A stretch of DNA of 64,000 nt, taken from positions 1 to 64,000 of the IMG/VR virus record IMGVR_UViG_3300043823_000198. One strand, written 5' to 3'. Positions 187-37,397 of the stretch are shown here, piece after piece (the stretch's first letter is position 1; every line of letters begins with the position of its first letter). The position numbers and the translations under genes were made by a program. Source of the stretch: a virus. The notes beneath the pieces are model-generated. The model had not been told where the DNA came from, did not search any database, and saw nothing but the letters and a program-made list of their open reading frames with translations.

Positions 187-262
187 TGCGGAGTGGAGAA
201 GTGGTATCTCAGCAGTCTCATAAGCTGCAGATCGTTGGTTCGATTCCAACCTCTCGCAACCA
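187..262 (+). tRNA. tRNA with CAT anticodon, one extra base in the acceptor stem
   Basis: D-stem gaga/tctc, anticodon arm gcagt-ctcataa-gctgc and T-arm gttgg-ttcgatt-ccaac are all sound, and CCA is encoded. Eight bases rather than seven lie between the T-stem and the discriminator. The acceptor pairs perfectly (tgcggag with ctc-t-cgca) only if one T is bulged. It resembles an initiator tRNA in its 5' half, but position 1:72 is a T-A pair. Confidence 0.82.
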
Positions 263-269
263 AGTATAA

Positions 270-902
270 ATGAAGAAACTTGCTTTATTCGTTGCTCATC
301 CGTATTGCTCAGCGCAATCGAACAATGGCATCGTTGAAGCACTAGAATCTAAATATACATTTAAATTATTTACAAAGCATGAAATAGAAGATAATTTTTT
401 TGATGATGTTGATGGTGTAATATTTGGTGGAGGATTCGGAGATAGCGAATCCTTTCATCATTTAATGCGTAATAATTCTAAAAGTGTAAAGAAATTTGTT
501 AAATCTGGTGGTAAATATATAGGTATTTGCATGGGTGGATACTGGGCAGGTAAAAGTTATTTTAATTTATTGCAAGAATGTGATACTGTTCAATATATTA
601 CAAGACCACATACTGATACACGTAGACCACATGCTAAAAATTTAGATGTTATTTGGAATGGCTCTAAAGAGAAAATGTTTTTTTATGATGGATTTGCTGT
701 TACTGAAGGAAATTATCTTTCATATGCTAAATACATGAATGGAGATTCAATGGCAATAATACAGAATAATATCGGTATTATTGGTTGCCATCCAGAAGCA
801 ACTCAACATTGGTATGATTCATATTCTTGGATGCATGGTAAATATGTAAGTAAACATAATTTACTTTTAGAATTTGTTGATAAGGTTATGTATGATACTT
901 GA
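270..902 (+). CDS. Class I glutamine-amidotransferase-like protein (BPL_N type)
   Basis: A 210-residue protein with the flavodoxin-like fold of class I amidotransferases, closest in style to the N-terminal domain of biotin-protein ligases. Visible features are a GGGFGDS loop near residue 53, the nucleophile elbow GICMGG with Cys87, and a GCHPE motif giving His174 and Glu176, so the Cys-His-Glu triad is complete. No partner synthetase domain is present, so the acceptor of any ammonia or acyl group is unknown. The start lies only seven bases after the CCA of the tRNA and has no Shine-Dalgarno sequence, so tRNA processing would leave an almost leaderless message. Confidence 0.7.
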   Translation: MKKLALFVAHPYCSAQSNNGIVEALESKYTFKLFTKHEIEDNFFDDVDGVIFGGGFGDSESFHHLMRNNSKSVKKFVKSGGKYIGICMGGYWAGKSYFNLLQECDTVQYITRPHTDTRRPHAKNLDVIWNGSKEKMFFYDGFAVTEGNYLSYAKYMNGDSMAIIQNNIGIIGCHPEATQHWYDSYSWMHGKYVSKHNLLLEFVDKVMYDT

Positions 903-1020
903 ATGGATAGTTATAGGATTTTGTAGTGCACTGGGATGGTGGGGTGCGAATTACTATGTAATTGTTCCATATCTACCTGAACCTGCGCCTGCAGAAAAAG
1001 TTGAAAAGTTGCCCCGATGA
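892..1020 (+). CDS. Small membrane-anchored protein of unknown function
   Basis: A 42-residue ORF overlapping the end of the previous gene by 11 bases. It has one N-terminal hydrophobic segment (about residues 4-27, with ALGWWGA) and a Pro/Glu/Lys-rich tail. Its last three codons overlap the 5' end of the tRNA-Leu gene, so message and tRNA compete for the same RNA. Similar tiny membrane proteins occur in other T4-like phages. Function unknown. Confidence 0.6.
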   Translation: MILEWIVIGFCSALGWWGANYYVIVPYLPEPAPAEKVEKLPR

Positions 1021-1087
1021 CGGAATTGGTATACGTGTTGGTCTTAGAAGCCAAATTTTGCGAGTTCGAGTCTCGCTTGGGGCACCA
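1011..1087 (+). tRNA. tRNA-Leu(TAG)
   Basis: Acceptor gccccga pairs with the 3' strand before gcacca. The anticodon arm ttggt-cttagaa-gccaa gives TAG, and CCA is encoded. The variable region is short for a class II tRNA but is followed by a good T-arm (gcgag-ttcgagt-ctcgc). Confidence 0.88.
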
Positions 1088-1092
1088 GTTAT

Positions 1093-1167
1093 GGTGATGT
1101 AGCTCAACGGTAGAGCAGCTCCTTCATACGGAGAAGGTTGGGGACTCGGTTTCCTCCATCACTACCA
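1093..1167 (+). tRNA. tRNA-Met(CAT), elongator-like
   Basis: Acceptor ggtgatg pairs with catcact (one G-T). The anticodon loop ttcatac gives CAT, the D-arm is agctcaacggtagagc, and CCA is encoded. It resembles bacterial elongator tRNA-Met. Confidence 0.9.
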
Positions 1168-1169
1168 CT

Positions 1170-1243
1170 GCTCTGTTAGTTAAATGGTATAACAGTTGAT
1201 TAGTAATCATCAATTGGGAGTTCGATTCTCTCACGGAGCACCA
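1170..1243 (+). tRNA. tRNA-Thr with unusual AGT anticodon
   Basis: Acceptor gctctgt/acggagc, D-stem gtta/taac and T-arm gggag-ttcgatt-ctctc are well formed, with encoded CCA. The anticodon loop is ttagtaa, giving AGT for Thr codon ACT. The anticodon stem gttga/tcatc has one T-T mismatch. A34 in a bacterial Thr tRNA is uncommon. Confidence 0.8.
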
Positions 1244-1259
1244 AACAATGGAGAACTGT

Positions 1260-1397
1260 ATGACACAAAAAGATACGATCGAACGTGCGTACGGTTCGAT
1301 TCCAAAAGAAGTAACAGCAATCTGGTTTGATAATTTCTTTGAATGCAGAGGCATTAAATATTACTGGTATAAACTAATAAGAAAAGTGACAAGATGA
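1260..1397 (+). CDS. Small hypothetical protein
   Basis: A 45-residue ORF between the tRNA cluster and the glycosyltransferase. The second in-frame ATG (1260) is chosen because GGAG sits six bases upstream; the first ATG (1248) has no site. The protein is aromatic-rich near its C-terminus (WFDNFFE, YYWYK). It ends in an ATGA overlap with the next gene, which suggests translational coupling. No recognised family. Confidence 0.6.
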   Translation: MTQKDTIERAYGSIPKEVTAIWFDNFFECRGIKYYWYKLIRKVTR

Positions 1398-2440
1398 CAA
1401 AAATTTTATTTTTACTTAAACGTAAGGATGATTATCATATTGAACGAGATAGTGAGATAGGTCTAAGCACAGGTCTATACAATTCTGCTAGTTTTATGCA
1501 TGAGATGCTACTTGATTCTGGCATTGATTCAAATATGAGTGTGGTGATTGATAACAACAGTATTGATAGAGTTGTCTCTCAATACAAACCAACACATGTT
1601 ATAATTGAAGCATTATGGGTTGTTCCAGAAAAATTCCAAGTTTTAAGACAGCTACATCCAAATGTAACATGGATTATAAGACTTCATTCTGAGATGCCAT
1701 TTATGGCTGGTGAAGGTCCAGCAATGGATTGGATTTGCGATTATTCAAATCTAAAGAATGTAGTTATTGCTTGCAATGCCCCACGTATGATGCGTGAGGT
1801 TCAAGAAATTCTTAAAGCAAAGAACCCAGATAAAGATTGGACTGGTAAAGTAATTTACCTTCCAAACTATTATCCTCAAGAATTTAAACAAAAGAAATTA
1901 AATAGAAACAAAGATGTTATTGACATTGGTTGTTTCGGTGCTGTTAGACCTTTGAAGAATCATTTGGTTCAGGCAATTGCAGCAATTGAGTTCGCAAACA
2001 GGATTAATAAAAAGTTGCGCTTCCACGTGAACGCAGGTAGAATTGAAATGCAGGGTGCTCCTGCCGTGCATAATCTGAAAGGATTATTTCAGCATATGTA
2101 TGAACAGGGTCATGAGTTAATTAATCATGAATGGACACCTAGAAACAGGTTCCTAGAATTGTGCTCTCAAATGGATATTGGAATGCAATGTAATTTCTCT
2201 GAAACATTCAACATCGTTGGCGCTGACTTAGTTTCTCAGGGAATACCTCTTGTTGGTAGTAAAGAAATTCCATGGCAGTCTATCGGTAGATGTGATCCAA
2301 CTGAAAGCGCACATATCGTAGAAGGTTTGACGAATGCCTATAATTATCCACAATTTAATGTTAGGTTAAATCAGTGGGCAATGAAACAATATACAAACAA
2401 AACCAAGAAAATTTGGGTAAACTATTTTAAGGAGAATTAA
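1394..2440 (+). CDS. GT-B fold glycosyltransferase (GT4-like)
   Basis: A 348-residue protein with the two-Rossmann layout of GT-B glycosyltransferases. The C-terminal half carries IGCFGAVRPLKNH (about residues 178-190), typical of the start of the donor-binding domain, and SETFNIVGADLVSQGIPLVG near residue 275, which matches the E-x7-E type nucleotide-sugar binding region of family 4 enzymes. The substrate could be phage DNA, a virion protein or host surface glycan; nothing nearby decides this. It is coupled by ATGA to the preceding small gene and followed without gap by the next. Confidence 0.72.
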   Translation: MTKILFLLKRKDDYHIERDSEIGLSTGLYNSASFMHEMLLDSGIDSNMSVVIDNNSIDRVVSQYKPTHVIIEALWVVPEKFQVLRQLHPNVTWIIRLHSEMPFMAGEGPAMDWICDYSNLKNVVIACNAPRMMREVQEILKAKNPDKDWTGKVIYLPNYYPQEFKQKKLNRNKDVIDIGCFGAVRPLKNHLVQAIAAIEFANRINKKLRFHVNAGRIEMQGAPAVHNLKGLFQHMYEQGHELINHEWTPRNRFLELCSQMDIGMQCNFSETFNIVGADLVSQGIPLVGSKEIPWQSIGRCDPTESAHIVEGLTNAYNYPQFNVRLNQWAMKQYTNKTKKIWVNYFKEN

Positions 2441-2641
2441 ATGTCACATACAGTTAAAATTCATCGTTGGGTAAATGGTATTCTTAAGATTGCCAACACA
2501 TCTCATGCGACTTTAGAAGAAGCTCTTGAGCATGCTCGTCATATGACTCGTGGCACTGGTCACTTTGCCAAGATCTATAACGATGATGCAGAATTGCTTC
2601 ATACAGTAAACAACGAAGGTACTCAAAGTACCTACGCTTAA
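2441..2641 (+). CDS. Conserved small phage protein, unknown function
   Basis: A 66-residue protein starting directly after the glycosyltransferase stop, with AAGGAG nine bases upstream. The charged, compact sequence (HRWVNGILK, EALEHARHM, FAKIYNDD) looks like a small folded domain and resembles proteins common in T4-like phages. Function unknown. Confidence 0.65.
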   Translation: MSHTVKIHRWVNGILKIANTSHATLEEALEHARHMTRGTGHFAKIYNDDAELLHTVNNEGTQSTYA

Positions 2642-2642
2642 T

Positions 2643-2714
2643 ATCTCGATAGTGTAACGGCAGCATACGGGTCTCCAAAACCCTTGGTGGGAGTTCAAAT
2701 CTCTCTCGGGATGC
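2643..2714 (+). tRNA. tRNA-Trp(CCA)
   Basis: Acceptor atctcga pairs with tcgggat. The anticodon loop ctccaaa gives CCA for UGG, the T-arm is gggag-ttcaaat-ctctc, and a 3' CCA is encoded. Confidence 0.9.
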
Positions 2715-2719
2715 CAATT

Positions 2720-28110: not shown

Positions 28111-28714
28111 GATAAATCTGCCGAATCTATCTTCTGAGTTAGAATCTAAACTTATTTCTATCGCAAATGGATATCAGCAATTTAAATATAGTAATGGAAC
28201 TATTGGGCAAAAATATTATGAGAAATCCGAATCAGTAGACGATATTGAGAATTTGAAACGACTCTATGGATTCAATGATATACCCCAACATAGATCTCGT
28301 GAAATTGGTAATCTTACTAATGATGTTTTGCGTGAAATGGATTGTTCTTTTATGGAGAACATCAATATGTATGTTCAGGTTATTGAAAGTAGAGATTCTT
28401 TTATACATACTGATGGTGGGCATAGAATATGTTCATTATATTATCTTATATCGGACAATGGCTCGAAAACAACATTTTACAAATCAGATAAACCTCCTGT
28501 TATGTCAACAGTTTGGAATCCAATGGACGTTTACCCGTATTACTCTTACATAATGAAACAACACGAATGGCATGCGTTTTCCCACAACGATATACATAGC
28601 GTAAACGATATATCTGGTTTGAGGGTTGGATTGATACTTGATTTTACACCTAAATTTAAAAAGTATGAAGATTTTGTTAAATTTCTTAAGAGAGCGAATC
28701 TAATAAGTGAATAA
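28094..28714 (+). CDS. 2OG-Fe(II) oxygenase-type protein (cassette gene 4)
   Basis: A 206-residue protein. His105/Asp107 (SFIHTDGGH) start the iron site, ICSLYYLISDNG follows, and the distal His is one of those in EWHAFSHNDIHSV (160-170), with Arg177 (SGLRVGLILDF). The position inside a methyltransferase/aminotransferase cassette suggests a hydroxylation step in a shared pathway. Confidence 0.66.
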   Translation: MNPLIKINLPNLSSELESKLISIANGYQQFKYSNGTIGQKYYEKSESVDDIENLKRLYGFNDIPQHRSREIGNLTNDVLREMDCSFMENINMYVQVIESRDSFIHTDGGHRICSLYYLISDNGSKTTFYKSDKPPVMSTVWNPMDVYPYYSYIMKQHEWHAFSHNDIHSVNDISGLRVGLILDFTPKFKKYEDFVKFLKRANLISE

Positions 28715-29510
28715 TTACCCTGCGTATAAAAACGGAACATACTGTCAGATTAAAGATCTGACAGTTTCAATTCTAGACTTTGGTTTTATCCATTCAGACG
28801 CAACTTATGATGTTATGTCTGTTAAAAATGGTGTCGTCAAAGATTTTGATGAACACGTGAACCGATTTATGGATAATTGTAATTTTTGGGGTCTTAATAC
28901 TCCAAACGATTTCCATATTAAAGAAATTATTATGGAGTTGGTAAATACATCTCCAACTAAAGACTTATTGGTTTGGATTTGCGTAACACGTGGAACACCG
29001 ACCACAGGAAATCCAAGAGATCTTGGTTCATGCGAACAAAACTTCTTCGCATACACAAAACCTTACTATGGGTTCAATCTAACAAATACTGCCACTGTTT
29101 GTCTAGCCAAACAAAGAAGAAATACCGCAATCAATCAAAGAAGAAAGAATTTTGCTTGGAATGATTTAACTCTTGCTCAGTTTGAGGCGAATTCAAGAGG
29201 ATTCGACACAGCTATTCTATTGGATGATAATGGTTTCGTGACTGAAGGTCCAGGATTCAACGTTGGGATGATACGAGGCGAACATATTATTGCTCCAGCT
29301 AAAAATTGTTTGCTTGGTGTAACTATGTCAAAGGTTAAAGAATTGGCTGAAGATAAGTTTTATTATTACAACGTAACACCAGAAACATTCAAATCAGCAG
29401 ATGCTATGTTCTTGACATCAACTGCTGGTGGTGTTATTTGTGTTACTAAGTTTGAAGACACTGTGTTTGAGAATAATAGATTATTATCATGGTTACAGAA
29501 CAACATATAA
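28707..29510 (+). CDS. PLP-dependent class IV aminotransferase
   Basis: A 267-residue fold-type IV PLP enzyme like branched-chain or D-amino-acid aminotransferases and aminodeoxychorismate lyase. Lys147 (RRKNFAWNDL) is the Schiff-base Lys, Glu180 (VTEGPGFNVG) the pyridine-nitrogen partner, and LLGVTMSKV binds phosphate. Substrate unknown. It starts with GTG in an overlap of eight bases. Rare in phages. Confidence 0.84.
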   Translation: MNNYPAYKNGTYCQIKDLTVSILDFGFIHSDATYDVMSVKNGVVKDFDEHVNRFMDNCNFWGLNTPNDFHIKEIIMELVNTSPTKDLLVWICVTRGTPTTGNPRDLGSCEQNFFAYTKPYYGFNLTNTATVCLAKQRRNTAINQRRKNFAWNDLTLAQFEANSRGFDTAILLDDNGFVTEGPGFNVGMIRGEHIIAPAKNCLLGVTMSKVKELAEDKFYYYNVTPETFKSADAMFLTSTAGGVICVTKFEDTVFENNRLLSWLQNNI

Positions 29511-30314: not shown

Positions 30315-30971
30315 ATGTTAGATTTTAAAGTTACTCCAATATTCCCAGTTGGTTTATATCAAGCGAGATTGGATTCTAATGTAATGATGAGTTCATTACC
30401 GCACCTTAGAGAGTTTGTTAAAGAAAGCACATATTCCAAAGATATGGTTGTGCACAGCGTTAGTTCGTTTAACAGATATATTTTAGAGAGCCAACAATTA
30501 ACTTCTCTAAAACTTCATCTTGAAGAGCATCTAGAACAATACAAGCGTCATGTTATTGGAGAAACTACTGATAGGTTTAAACTTTACATAACAATGTCAT
30601 GGTGTACAGGATTGTTGCCAGGAAATACGCACCAAGAACATAATCACGCAAACTCTATTATATCTGGTGTTATGTATTTTGATAACCCACCAAATGCTTC
30701 TCCATTTGTTTTACATAAAGATGATTCTTCTTGTGGTGGTTTTATAAATCTTTCTCCAACAACTAATACGGATTTCTCAAAGATTATGCACTTTGTTCCA
30801 CCTATAAATGGGACATTATTATTATTTCCTTCTCATTTAAAACATAGAGTTCCAAAGAACGAAACAGAAACACAAAGGAACAGTTTGGCCTTTGACACGT
30901 TTTTTGAGGGTGAGATTGGAGCAAGTCGAAATATTTTAAAAATGTCTAGAATCAATCAACAGGGGATTTAA
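30315..30971 (+). CDS. 2OG-Fe(II) oxygenase-type protein (TIGR02466-like)
   Basis: A 218-residue protein with His109/His111 (QEHNHAN), SGVMYFDNPP, distal His177 (SHLKHRVPKN) and Arg188 (QRNSLAFDTF). This is the H-x-H subtype also seen at 4006 and 6618. Two bases separate it from the hydrolase. Confidence 0.75.
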   Translation: MLDFKVTPIFPVGLYQARLDSNVMMSSLPHLREFVKESTYSKDMVVHSVSSFNRYILESQQLTSLKLHLEEHLEQYKRHVIGETTDRFKLYITMSWCTGLLPGNTHQEHNHANSIISGVMYFDNPPNASPFVLHKDDSSCGGFINLSPTTNTDFSKIMHFVPPINGTLLLFPSHLKHRVPKNETETQRNSLAFDTFFEGEIGASRNILKMSRINQQGI

Positions 30972-31199
30972 ATGAAATTTTATGAAAAAGCGATGCGATC
31001 ATTGGGTAAAGTGGTTACTTGGCGCATTCTTGTTACAATTACCAATTTTATTGGTGGATGGTTGGCGTCTGGTTCTTGGACCGTTGGTCTTGGGGTTGTA
31101 TCTTTTGCTCTGGTTGTTAACAGTGTAATTTATTATTTCCACGAACGAGCATGGAATGCAATTGATGCTGGTAAGGAAATACTTGACAAACAAGAATAA
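30972..31199 (+). CDS. DUF2061-like small membrane protein
   Basis: A 75-residue protein with two transmembrane segments, KVVTWRILVTITNFIGGWL and a central hydrophobic block, ending in YYFHERAWNAID. The K-x2-T-W-R-I and H-E-R-x-W-N motifs mark DUF2061. Unknown function. Its 3' end holds the promoter of the tmRNA gene. Confidence 0.75.
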   Translation: MKFYEKAMRSLGKVVTWRILVTITNFIGGWLASGSWTVGLGVVSFALVVNSVIYYFHERAWNAIDAGKEILDKQE

Positions 31200-31211
31200 A
31201 TAGAGTATAAT
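31183..31211 (+). promoter_or_regulatory. Sigma70-like promoter of the tmRNA gene
   Basis: Consensus TTGACA, 17 bases, TATAAT. The expected start is near 31218, a few bases before the tmRNA acceptor piece. It overlaps the last codons of the upstream gene. Confidence 0.8.
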
Positions 31212-31217
31212 TAAAGG

Positions 31218-31283
31218 AATTGTTGTAATCCCTTCAAAGCGAAGGACTTCTGGACGTGGGTTCGACTCCCACCATCTCCACCA
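31218..31283 (+). ncRNA. ssrA: Permuted tmRNA, acceptor (3') piece
   Basis: A tRNA-like 3' end without any D-arm or anticodon arm: ttctggac, then the T-arm gtggg-ttcgact-cccac, acceptor strand catctcc, discriminator A and CCA ending at 31283. The seven acceptor bases pair with ggggatg at 31372-31378, which lies downstream rather than upstream, so the gene is circularly permuted. A short hairpin (cttc/gaag) precedes it. In established two-piece tmRNAs this piece carries the alanine. Confidence 0.88.
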
Positions 31284-31371
31284 GAAGTATTCTAAACTGG
31301 ACGCAGGATCAGAGAAGGTTGAAAGTGGGTTGATCACCACAAATAAGCTGGAGATTAAGAATATTTCTGAT
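31284..31371 (+). ncRNA. Intervening segment of the permuted tmRNA precursor
   Basis: An 88-base spacer between CCA and the 5' end of the coding piece. Bases 31283-31293 (agaagtattct) pair with 31358-31368 (agaatatttct) in an 11-pair helix with one G-U, extending the acceptor stem; an inner hairpin is gtgg/ccac. This is the expected precursor fold removed by RNA processing. Confidence 0.75.
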
Positions 31372-31540
31372 GGGGATGCCATGGTTTCGACAGGGGTAGA
31401 TAGTAGAGAAGGCAACACGGTAGGCGATGACCGTAAATCAAGCAAACTAAGTAAATGCAAACGACTCTGTCTTCGCATTAGCAGCCTAAACGCTGCTTAG
31501 GGTTTCGGTAGGTTTCCTCGTAACAGAATAACCTACCATT
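31372..31540 (+). ncRNA. ssrA: Permuted tmRNA, coding (5') piece with tag reading frame
   Basis: Starts ggggatgccatggtttcgac, the conserved 5' part of tmRNA. A stem acggt/accgt lies where the first pseudoknot belongs. The tag frame at 31457-31489 reads ANDSVFALAA then TAA, close to the E. coli tag ANDENYALAA, with resume codon GCA. A hairpin agcagc/gctgct surrounds the stop as in helix 5 of tmRNA, followed by ggtagg...cctacc. The 3' limit is estimated. SmpB is not in this window and may come from the host. Confidence 0.9.
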
Positions 31541-31560
31541 TCTAAACATTAAGGAGTATT

Positions 31561-32025
31561 ATGAAAAAGAGTATTTTGTTAGTAGCTTTGTTAGCAACTT
31601 TCGGTGTTGCACAAGCTGTTGAAGTTGGTGTTCTTGGCGCCAAAGATGAATCTCATCAAGATCAAGGTAAAGATCATTCTCATTACGGTTTAACTGTAGG
31701 TGAACAATTTGGTAAAGTATCTGTCGAAGGCGAATTTTCTGTTTTGAATCAAAGTGGTAATGATCAAGAAAAGTATTCTGTTATTGCTGGATACGATGTA
31801 TATAAATTAGGATTCGTTACTCTTACTCCTAAAGCTGGTGTTTCTTATTTAAGTAACACAGGAAATGTTGCTGATGGCTATGCTATTCGTGCTGGAGTTG
31901 GAGCTTCTGTTCCACTTAGCGATAGCGTAAAGGCAGGTGTTGATTTTTACCATCAGTATGGACAAAATCGTGTAAGCGCATATGATGGTAACACTATTCA
32001 AGCGAGCGTTAAGTACGCATTCTAA
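31561..32025 (+). CDS. Outer-membrane beta-barrel-like exported protein
   Basis: A 154-residue protein with a classic signal peptide (MKKSILLVALLATFGVAQA, cleavage after residue 19 or so). The mature part alternates polar and hydrophobic residues in about eight strands and ends in SVKYAF, with the C-terminal Phe typical of outer-membrane proteins. Perhaps it alters the infected cell surface, for example superinfection exclusion. AAGGAG upstream. It directly follows the tmRNA and may share its promoter. Confidence 0.72.
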   Translation: MKKSILLVALLATFGVAQAVEVGVLGAKDESHQDQGKDHSHYGLTVGEQFGKVSVEGEFSVLNQSGNDQEKYSVIAGYDVYKLGFVTLTPKAGVSYLSNTGNVADGYAIRAGVGASVPLSDSVKAGVDFYHQYGQNRVSAYDGNTIQASVKYAF

Positions 32026-32026
32026 T

Positions 32027-32293
32027 ATGAATATTCAACCAATGAAAAAGTTCGTTCTTGTTGCAGAGAACGCAAGGAAAAATACCACTGATTCTGGTAT
32101 TATCCTTGAGGGTGCTGGGTTTGATCAATCAAAAACAGGTACAGTCCTAGCCATTGGTCCAGACGTCACCGATGTAAAAGTCGGCGACGTCATCTATTTG
32201 GAATGGAACAAAGGTTCGGTTGTTAAGATTGGTGATGCTCAACGTGTTATGATTAAAGAAGAATTCATTGTTGCTGTTGTAGATTCAGAATAA
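32027..32293 (+). CDS. groES: GroES-type co-chaperonin
   Basis: An 88-residue Cpn10-like protein: MKKFVLVAENARKNTTDSGIIL with the mobile loop, GTVLAIGP, VKVGDVIYLEWN and a C-terminal KEEFIVAVV. Shorter than E. coli GroES (97), and like T4 gp31 in purpose: a phage co-chaperonin for host GroEL, usually for capsid folding. Start at 32027, immediately after the barrel gene. It abuts the next gene by TAATG. Confidence 0.86.
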   Translation: MNIQPMKKFVLVAENARKNTTDSGIILEGAGFDQSKTGTVLAIGPDVTDVKVGDVIYLEWNKGSVVKIGDAQRVMIKEEFIVAVVDSE

Positions 32294-33400: not shown

Positions 33401-33997
33401 ATGCGAACATACCGTATATACATACCATTAGTATTATTAATATTATCTGCTGTTTTTATTTCAAAAACATCATTCTCTGAGTCTATATTACTCGATGTTA
33501 AATATAACCAACTAACAAAAGAAACACAAAAACAAATTGATTGTCTCGCTGACAATATCTACCATGAGGCTGGTCATGAATCTGACGAAGGTAAAAAAGC
33601 AGTTGCACTGGTGACTCTCAATCGAACACAAGATCCAAGATTCCCAAAAGATATTTGTGGAGTCGTTAAACAAAAAACATTAAACACATGTCAGTTCTCG
33701 TGGTTTTGCGAACCAATTAGGAAAACAGAACCTGACCTGTATCAAAAATCAAAAGAAATAGCAATATTTGTTTACGCTAATTATGAAAAATTAAGCGATA
33801 TAACAAAAGGCGCATTATACTATCATGCAGATTATATAAATCCCAAATGGAAACTCGAAAAGACTACAGTAATTGGTAGACATATTTTTTATAAGGAAAG
33901 TGGAAAATACTATGATGCAAAAACTGAACTTACAACTGAAGGAAGAACAATCAAAACATTCCTTTTTACTTCTGATGGAGGATATATCTCTCAATAG
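33401..33997 (+). CDS. SleB-type cell-wall hydrolase with signal anchor
   Basis: A 198-residue protein. An N-terminal signal-anchor (about residues 5-22) is followed by the hydrolase_2 domain: LADNIYHEAGHE (catalytic Glu56), ALVTLNRTQDPRFP, CQFSWFCE and GALYYHADYINPKW. It would act on peptidoglycan from the periplasmic side, unlike the cytoplasmic GH19 enzyme. The C-terminal 28 residues overlap the protease gene. AAGGAG upstream. Confidence 0.82.
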   Translation: MRTYRIYIPLVLLILSAVFISKTSFSESILLDVKYNQLTKETQKQIDCLADNIYHEAGHESDEGKKAVALVTLNRTQDPRFPKDICGVVKQKTLNTCQFSWFCEPIRKTEPDLYQKSKEIAIFVYANYEKLSDITKGALYYHADYINPKWKLEKTTVIGRHIFYKESGKYYDAKTELTTEGRTIKTFLFTSDGGYISQ

Positions 33998-34469
33998 CGT
34001 AAAAACTGCTGTTGAGTGGATATTCGAAGCAAATTTTGCAGAAGAACGACCAGAATTATTAAATTTGATAATCACTAGTCCTGGTGGTGATTTAAATGCT
34101 GCATTTGCTTTAATTGATACGATGCGTGGTTCTGCCATTCCAATTAGGACAATTGGTCTTGGTCAAGTTGCTTCAGCTGGTCTTATGATTTTTATTGCAG
34201 GAACTCCTGGTCACAGAATTCTAACACCAAATACTTCAATTCTTTCTCATCAATACTCATGGGGCGCAATTGGTAAAGAACATGAATTATTTGCAACTGT
34301 AAAAGAATTCGATTTAACGACTAAGAAAATGATTGCGCATTACAAAAAATGTACTGGTCTTAGCGAAAAAGATATTCGAGATATGTTGCTACCTCCACAA
34401 GATATTTGGTTGAGCGCAATCGAAGCGAAGAAAATGGGTCTTTGTGATCAGGTAAAAGAATTATCTTAA
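33912..34469 (+). CDS. clpP: ClpP-like serine protease
   Basis: A 185-residue ClpP/crotonase-fold protease: TSPGGD oxyanion loop (56-60), Ser88 (VASAGL), His113 (LSHQYSW) and Asp164 (PPQDIW) form the triad with the spacing of bacterial ClpP. Start at ATG 33912 or 33915, overlapping the hydrolase gene by 86 bases. It could degrade tagged or unfolded proteins with a host unfoldase, or be a phage maturation protease. Confidence 0.84.
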   Translation: MMQKLNLQLKEEQSKHSFLLLMEDISLNSVKTAVEWIFEANFAEERPELLNLIITSPGGDLNAAFALIDTMRGSAIPIRTIGLGQVASAGLMIFIAGTPGHRILTPNTSILSHQYSWGAIGKEHELFATVKEFDLTTKKMIAHYKKCTGLSEKDIRDMLLPPQDIWLSAIEAKKMGLCDQVKELS

Positions 34470-35618: not shown

Positions 35619-36227
35619 GTGGACGGATTTAAAGCATACCGATATTATCTAGCAATTAAACTACACTTCACAACAGATAAATTTAACGTCTTCGAAAATC
35701 GAGGTAATGTAAGAGGATCTCGTGAAGCATTTAATGCTCGTAATGACAGATACATATTTGAGAAAATAGCAAGAAAGTTTTCTTCAGATCGAGACATTGT
35801 TCAATTCTTTGTTGCAAATTTTGCGTATAGTACTGAACCTGCAATTTATGCAGGACAAGAAGCGGAAGATTCTCTTTTTGAGTGGAGCAGAAGAAAACAA
35901 AGTATTAGTAGAATTTTTATTGATGATCTAGCAAATATACTAAATTATGTTGAGATAAACAAATTACCAACTTCTTGTATTTTTGATTTTCAAAATAATG
36001 AGTATCCTGTAGCATTAAAACTATTTTTGGGTAAAAAGATTTCAATTGAAACCCTTGCAATAATCAATGAACTCGATCATGTTGTTGAGCATTGGATAAG
36101 TAATCCTACTGTGCAACATATTTGGGGTAATGAATTATTGCGAATAAAAAAGTTGACAGGTTTCGTTAAATACGATAAAATAAAACTTGGACAAATCTTT
36201 AAACATTTTGTAGAAGAATTAGACTGA
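35619..36227 (+). CDS. gp59: DNA helicase loader gp59
   Basis: A 202-residue protein with GTG start. MDGFKAYRYYLAIKLHFTTD, RNDRYIFEKIARKF and IFDFQNNEYPVALKLFLG agree with gp59, which loads the gp41 helicase on gp32-coated DNA. Length close to T4 gp59 (217). Neighbours gp33 and gp32 are as in T4. Confidence 0.82.
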   Translation: MDGFKAYRYYLAIKLHFTTDKFNVFENRGNVRGSREAFNARNDRYIFEKIARKFSSDRDIVQFFVANFAYSTEPAIYAGQEAEDSLFEWSRRKQSISRIFIDDLANILNYVEINKLPTSCIFDFQNNEYPVALKLFLGKKISIETLAIINELDHVVEHWISNPTVQHIWGNELLRIKKLTGFVKYDKIKLGQIFKHFVEELD

Positions 36228-36476: not shown

Positions 36477-37397
36477 ATGGATATTCAAACACTCCGTAAA
36501 ATGCGCAATCAAGACTTCAGCAAAATCGCTGGAGAATTTGATAAGATCTCTAATCCCCAATCTGGCGAGAAGAAGTCATACGAAGATGACAGATTCTGGC
36601 GTCTAGAGGGCGACAAGGCTGGTAACGGAACAGCTACTATTCGATTCCTACCACGTGTTGAAGGCGACGAGCTTCCTTGGGTTCGTATCTTTTCTCATGG
36701 CTTCCAGGGTCCAACTGGCAAATGGTATATCGAAAACTCCCTAACAACTCTTGGCGAAACCGATCCTGTCGGTGAATTGAACACCCAACTTTGGAACTCT
36801 GGTTCTGAAGCAAACAAAGAGATTGCTCGTAAACAAAAGCGTAAGTTGAGTTTCATCGCAAATGTTCTTATCGTTTCTGATCCAAAGCACCCTGAGAATG
36901 AAGGACAGGTTAAACTGTTTAAATTCGGTAAGAAAATCTTTGATAAGATTATGGATAAGGCAAAGCCAACCTATGAAGATGAAACACCTGTAAACGTGTT
37001 CGACTTCTGGGAAGGTGCCAACTTCAAGTTGCGTATGCGCAAGAAAGATGGATATACCAACTACGACGAATCTGCATTCTTGGAGCCAGCAGCAATTGGT
37101 TCTGATGAGGAAATCGTTGCTGTTGCGAAAGCCCAGCATAAACTTGCTGAGTTTCTTGATCGTAAAAACTTCAAGTCTTATGATGAATTGAAGAAGAAAC
37201 TTGATCAGGTTCTTTCTGGCGATTCTTTTATTTCTAAATCTGCGGCAGATTTATCTGAAGATGAAATACCTTCAGCGCCTGCTCCAAAAATCGCATCAAA
37301 ACCTGCTCTTACTCTTACTCAAAAGACAGTTGATGTTGAAGATGATGAAGAAGAAGACGTTATGTCTTATTTTAAGAAAATCGCTCAAGAAGAATAA
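36477..37397 (+). CDS. gp32: Single-stranded DNA-binding protein gp32
   Basis: A 306-residue gp32. The basic N-terminal region (LRKMRNQDF) is the cooperativity domain, the OB core carries GKWYIENSLTTLG, ANVLIVSDPKHPENEGQV and FGKKIFDKIMDK, and the acidic C-terminus (DVEDDEEEDVMSYF) binds partners. T4 gp32 holds a zinc with three Cys and one His; this protein has no Cys at all in that region (residues 75-110), so the zinc site is lost. AAGGAAA upstream; terminator downstream. Confidence 0.93.
   Translation: MDIQTLRKMRNQDFSKIAGEFDKISNPQSGEKKSYEDDRFWRLEGDKAGNGTATIRFLPRVEGDELPWVRIFSHGFQGPTGKWYIENSLTTLGETDPVGELNTQLWNSGSEANKEIARKQKRKLSFIANVLIVSDPKHPENEGQVKLFKFGKKIFDKIMDKAKPTYEDETPVNVFDFWEGANFKLRMRKKDGYTNYDESAFLEPAAIGSDEEIVAVAKAQHKLAEFLDRKNFKSYDELKKKLDQVLSGDSFISKSAADLSEDEIPSAPAPKIASKPALTLTQKTVDVEDDEEEDVMSYFKKIAQEE

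Follow-up and report, generated by a model that had tools for sequence, protein, structure and literature searches.

A predicted beta-type permuted tmRNA gene and a downstream ClpP-like gene in a T4-type phage

The C1 mycobacteriophages, which are unrelated to the phage considered here, carry tmRNAs with the standard one-piece gene order. They resemble it, according to the literature, in being large lytic myoviruses that encode a tmRNA and numerous tRNAs. Mycobacteriophage DS6A also carries a tmRNA-like RNA, but one without a tag frame that is reported to be inhibitory to the host tmRNA, whereas the RNA described below has a full tag frame; 79 unique bacteriophage tmRNAs were counted in the same report (PMC11915505). 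Nearer to the present case are the two-piece tmRNAs encoded by permuted genes. A survey of 18,146 phage genomes recovered 53 of these, of which 50 were marine or aquatic (Buchholz et al. 2022, PMC9004378). One of these was described in the T4-like phage Melnitz, where a glutamine riboswitch comes after it, and 17 permuted tmRNAs were present among 47 contigs clustering with Melnitz (PMC9004378). Our pattern scan of IMG/VR for the T-arm and acceptor returned at least 119 stretches, in which ARAGORN called at least 59 permuted tmRNAs besides the one studied here, a few of them with implausible tags that may mark false calls. Given these numbers, the rarity that a sequence-only reading had attributed to such a gene in a T4-type phage does not hold. 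Permuted tmRNAs of T4-like aquatic phages are a known kind, to which the present copy adds a beta-type example.

The locus lies in the window, the 64,000-nucleotide stretch that was analyzed, which belongs to a virus record of 165,633 bases. As in the Melnitz region (MZ577097), a permuted tmRNA is followed downstream by gp59-like and gp32-like genes and has a cell wall hydrolase gene nearby. However, the Melnitz tmRNA is alpha-type (RF01849, 106.7 bits), has the tag ANDNYVPVDYALAA, and is followed by the riboswitch, whereas that of the window is beta-type and is followed by GroES-like and ClpP-like genes, with no Rfam riboswitch match in the window. The permuted ssrA genes of betaproteobacteria (RF01850) resemble it in model, layout, promoter position, and tag style. 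The differences from these host genes are in the intervening segment, which has 88 nt compared to 25 to 77 nt in 24 sampled host genes, and in the tag, which is ANDSVFALAA compared to the ANDESYALAA and ANDERFALAA types. The new element is the neighborhood, namely, a ClpP-like protease gene downstream of a permuted tmRNA. No published report of a tmRNA adjoining ClpP in T4-type phages was found in the part of the literature covered; one paper on a jumbo phage reports a genome with tmRNA, GroES, and Clp genes.

The tmRNA gene and its parts

In the window, ARAGORN called a permuted tmRNA with the tag ANDSVFALAA at 31191-31580. The Infernal search (cmscan, Rfam) matched RF01850 (beta_tmRNA) at 31169-31543 with 160.1 bits (E 1.7e-49) and RF04321 (tmRNA_permuted) at 31221-31489 with 150.9 bits (E 6e-30), compared to gathering cut-offs of 84 and 47 bits, respectively, and the beta model was the top-scoring member of its clan. 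The two-piece gene proposed by the sequence-only reading is therefore borne out by both permuted-type models, far above cut-off, as well as by ARAGORN, and the coordinates it gave (CCA to 31283, GGGG from 31372) were accurate on direct reading. From these matches we place a permuted, beta-type tmRNA gene at about 31218-31540 of this T4-type phage record (Table 1). Three further elements of that reading were recovered as well: the acceptor pairing over seven positions (7/7), the ANDSVFALAA frame with its TAA in a hairpin, and a consensus promoter of its own. This promoter was the only sigma-70 site within 900 bases (30900-31800), and its -35/-10 spacing is identical in two related phages (L048 and L099). 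As for the limits of the two pieces, the 5′ end of the acceptor piece (31218) was inferred from the promoter position, and the 3′ end of the coding piece (31540) is approximate. The G3-U70 wobble, an alanine-charging signal, is among the acceptor pairs. The minimum-free-energy fold of 31218-31540 recovers the acceptor, the T-stem, the tag hairpin, and the terminal hairpin (z = -2.4), and an equal stability was found in 0 of 100 shuffles. A chance or artefact reading is ruled out by the ARAGORN and Rfam matches, the acceptor pairing, and the covariation given below.

Table 1. Predicted features of the tmRNA gene and of the genes downstream (window coordinates)
Feature	Position	Strand	Basis
Sigma-70 type promoter TTGACA-17-TATAAT	31183..31211	+	12/12 consensus
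Acceptor (3′) piece: T-arm, CATCTCC, A, encoded CCA	31218..31283	+	RF04321/RF01850 alignment; conserved in relatives
T-stem/loop	31256-31272 (stem 31256-31260/31268-31272)	+	Direct reading
Acceptor 3′ strand CATCTCC	31273-31279; A 31280; CCA 31281-31283	+	
Intervening segment, 88 nt, presumed removed	31284..31371	+	Direct reading, fold, pairing of ends
Coding (5′) piece: GGGGATG, tag frame, terminal hairpin	31372..31540	+	RF01850 match reaching 31543
Acceptor 5′ strand GGGGATG	31372-31378	+	Pairs 7/7 with CATCTCC, G3-U70 included
Tag frame GCA..TAA = ANDSVFALAA-stop	31457..31489	+	ARAGORN, translation
Tag-stop hairpin AGCAGC-CUAAAC-GCUGCU, TAA inside loop	31480..31497	+	Fold, pair counts
Terminal hairpin GGUAGGUU...AACCUACC	31507..31537	+	7/8 pairs change on both sides, 12 phage sequences
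Small outer-membrane beta-barrel-like protein	31561..32025	+	Weak: PF13505 27.7 bits, cut-off 28.7
GroES-like co-chaperonin, start codon uncertain	32027..32293	+	PF00166 E 2e-12, phrog_3188
Cell wall hydrolase	33401..33997	+	PF07486 E 5e-22
ClpP-like peptidase	33912..34469	+	PF00574 E 2e-29, 102.9 bits (cut-off 20.2)
gp59-like helicase loader (synteny marker)	35619..36227	+	tblastn to L234:6960-7532; named via Melnitz gene 91
gp32 single-strand DNA-binding protein (synteny marker)	36477..37397	+	PF08804 E 9e-43, phrog_224

Selection on the RNA and comparison with host genes

The acceptor pairs form 7/7 in all 35 distinct usable viral sequences among the matches listed, where they occur in three compensatory states, each of which keeps G3-U70. 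For three helices in 12 aligned coding pieces, the covariation score was 0.384, compared to 0.136 in shuffled alignments and at most 0.132 in slid ones, and 0 of 500 shuffles reached it. The tag hairpin had the weaker pair support, with 72% of cells paired in the 12 coding pieces. Throughout the related phages the tag frame is unbroken and has ALAA-type ends, and no conservation is seen in the flanks or over most of the intervening segment. Because the RNA helices covary among the related phages, the tmRNA gene is under selection; since the sequences are related, the covariation and pairing tests show selection on structure and not the number of independent events.

The two ends of the intervening segment, GAAGTATTCT (31284-31293) and AGAATATTTC (31358-31367), pair with each other over 10 bp. 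A mean of 8.8 of the 10 positions was paired in the viral sequences, compared to 6.1 (SD 0.24, maximum 7.0) when the ends were swapped between sequences. In most of the viral permuted tmRNAs checked, these ends form a covarying helix of roughly 10 bp beside the acceptor stem. Stacked near the acceptor stem, this helix may help present the precursor for cleavage, and it is a candidate processing guide for the two-piece precursor.

Host tmRNAs of the same (beta) kind are present in the order and the family reached via genomes G717 and G840; judging by the Rfam class, this group would be the Burkholderiales. Identity to the nearest sampled host tmRNA reaches 72% for the acceptor piece and 85% for the coding piece, compared to 91 to 94% and 91 to 98%, respectively, for the nearest phage tmRNAs. 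The function-bearing positions are kept despite this divergence from the sampled hosts. No near-identical host gene that could mark a recent donor was found in 369 genomes of one class, in 85 genomes of the order of G041, in 399 genomes of the order of G717, or in 151 genomes of the family of G840. A scan of genome contigs for the ANDSVFALAA pattern gave no match, and a scan for the acceptor pattern returned mainly standard tmRNAs, largely from Chloroflexota. The phage and host rows fell mostly into separate clusters in a tree of the tmRNA core (169 columns), but most branches are weak and the tree therefore names no donor. The pattern of identities and clusters agrees better with a gene that has long been in phages than with one freshly captured.

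Phage setting and the linkage to ClpP

The T4-type setting that had been proposed for the locus was found on both scales. The window contains gp32, baseplate wedge, tail tube, tail tube cap, and head closure genes, and the record beyond it contains portal, scaffold, gp21-type prohead protease, and tail sheath genes. Among named phages, the baseplate gp6 is nearest to those of Methylophilales phage Melnitz and Pelagibacter phage HTVC008M (43%). The nearest relatives of the tmRNA are L048/L211 (a 174-kb contig), L160/L210, L099, L024, L002, L107, and L028/L212 (a 169-kb contig); in the two large phage contigs (169 to 174 kb; L211 and L212) it is syntenic, with the surrounding gene order of the window. 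Host DNA in a viral record is ruled out by the T4-type genes around the locus and by this synteny. The L160/L210 contig (CALMJT010000228.1) is labelled as an uncultured Alteromonadales metagenome-assembled genome; it carries T4-type gp32, gp59, and tail genes and permuted tmRNA pieces 94 to 96% identical to those of the window, and it looks like phage sequence binned into that genome. The record also holds 24 tRNAs, 5 in the window (187-2716) and 19 within the final 9 kb of the record, which means that the phage invests in translation. The array of 19 tRNAs at the record end is at 162021-164725 of the record (L257:5521-8225). A gene for SmpB was not detected in the record, and the phage would therefore have to use the SmpB of its host.

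The beta-barrel-like gene that follows the tmRNA is probably cotranscribed with it. The ClpP-like gene lies 2.4 kb downstream of the tmRNA, and its product keeps the Ser/His/Asp triad in an alignment to a solved ClpP. That this protein is the prohead protease is ruled out by the presence of a separate S77-type gp21. A search of IMG/VR with the ClpP of the window gave 508 relatives, of which the best 80 were kept and 44 had at least 5 kb of upstream sequence. ARAGORN found a permuted tmRNA 1.05 to 2.9 kb upstream in 42 of these 44 loci, and Rfam added one more (L327), giving 43 of 44; the remaining locus, L260, has only a partial tmRNA copy upstream. Counted from the gp59 side, 24 of 26 loci carry both tmRNA and ClpP, the other two being of the partial-tmRNA type. 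However, the ClpP proteins of these linked loci are 79 to 96% identical and form one lineage, which means that a stable linkage is shown and not an independent association.

More divergent examples, which are the more informative ones, were present in other phages. For instance, a ClpP-family protein only 26 to 27% identical to that of the window is encoded directly after a permuted tmRNA in L085 and L076, and in L022 a ClpP-family gene that could be a head maturation protease lies about 60 bases past its tmRNA. The coordinates of these genes are L085:934-1605, L076:9764-10369, and L022:533-1390. Among the matches listed, a same-strand ClpP-family gene follows within about 2.5 kb at 13 permuted and no standard tmRNA loci, a comparison that is confounded by lineage. 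No ClpP was detected downstream of the tmRNA at 10 T4-type loci or near the tmRNA in the Melnitz region, and no tmRNA was found in the 20 kb examined beside the ClpP of BUCT-ZZ01.

The L260 phage is not simply one without tmRNA. Its partial copy (L260:5095-5275) has the acceptor 5′ strand, an alpha-like tag frame read by eye as ANDNYAPFEIALAA, and the terminal hairpin, and no acceptor piece was detected in the 32-kb contig. An identical partial copy is present in L263, with the tag region at 1495. These copies may be decaying, or they may specify a coding RNA that works with the acceptor RNA of the host. The 10 T4-type loci with a tmRNA and no detected ClpP, together with this sister type with a partial tmRNA, mean that the gene concerned is not essential to every member.

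Proposed function and alternatives

The explanation that we favor, with a probability of roughly 0.7, is a functional beta-type permuted tmRNA that is resident in a T4-type phage lineage and rescues ribosomes with host SmpB. The host-like sigma-70 promoter would give one precursor RNA, and this would fold so that the two acceptor strands, whose pairing is read directly from the sequence, are brought together. As in known two-piece tmRNAs, host tRNA-processing enzymes would then excise the 88-nt intervening segment, and the acceptor and coding RNAs would stay joined by base pairing. Going by established two-piece tmRNA biology, alanine charging via G3-U70 would be followed by binding of host SmpB. 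Once inside ribosomes stalled on broken messages, the tmRNA would append ANDSVFALAA to the incomplete protein. The most likely gain for the phage, although less certain than these steps, is that ribosomes continue to be recycled while host messages, and perhaps also host ssrA, disappear. The tagged fragments, with their LAA ends, would probably pass to ClpXP-type proteases, and more speculatively, the phage's own ClpP-like protein could assist in their degradation.

ClpP-kind proteases destroy tmRNA-tagged proteins. The tmRNA, the phage ClpP-like peptidase, and a host unfoldase (ClpX or ClpA) might form a tag-and-degrade module through which the phage would control which proteins are tagged and destroyed, and so recover amino acids or dispose of proteins it does not want; this would add to ribosome rescue and not replace it. 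The near-constant upstream tmRNA at the ClpP loci, the separate S77 prohead protease, the divergent ClpP-family genes of L085 and L076, and the excess of ClpP neighbors at permuted loci all point in this direction. However, the 44 loci belong to a single lineage and hence show conserved synteny. In T4-type relatives, Melnitz among them, no ClpP was detected near the tmRNA, certain phage members of the ClpP family act as head maturation proteases, and the BUCT-ZZ01 ClpP has no tmRNA beside it in the region examined. On balance we consider such a module plausible but rather unlikely, and we are more hesitant still about a T4-type module of a tagging tmRNA and a non-structural ClpP-like peptidase in which the pairing formed more than once.

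Two other explanations would deny the RNA its usual role. As a decoy or inhibitor, it would draw SmpB or ribosomes away from the host tmRNA and so blunt the quality control of the host, as the tag-less DS6A form suggests by inhibiting the endogenous tmRNA when expressed in E. coli (PMC11915505). But a decoy would not need a conserved tag frame, hairpin, and stop, and all three are kept here across many phages, unlike in the DS6A form; this makes the explanation quite improbable. Least probable of all is a functionless passenger or a captured host gene in decay. The incomplete copies in L260 and L263 mean that decay does happen, but the intact elements, the covariation, the long conservation against non-conserved flanks, and the function-bearing positions kept in spite of a best host match of 72% (acceptor) and 85% (coding) argue against it in the window.

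With this gene, two-piece tmRNAs are confirmed to be widespread among T4-type phages and maintained by selection, not a curiosity, and phages are confirmed to carry beta-type besides alpha-type permuted tmRNA genes. If the pairing of tmRNA and ClpP is functional, whether a phage tmRNA serves ribosome rescue or the steering of proteolysis becomes testable. Elsewhere in the window, a class IV aminotransferase, an unusual phage gene, is encoded at 28707-29510 (PF01063, E 9e-32), and near it a 2OG-Fe(II) oxygenase is encoded at 30315-30971.
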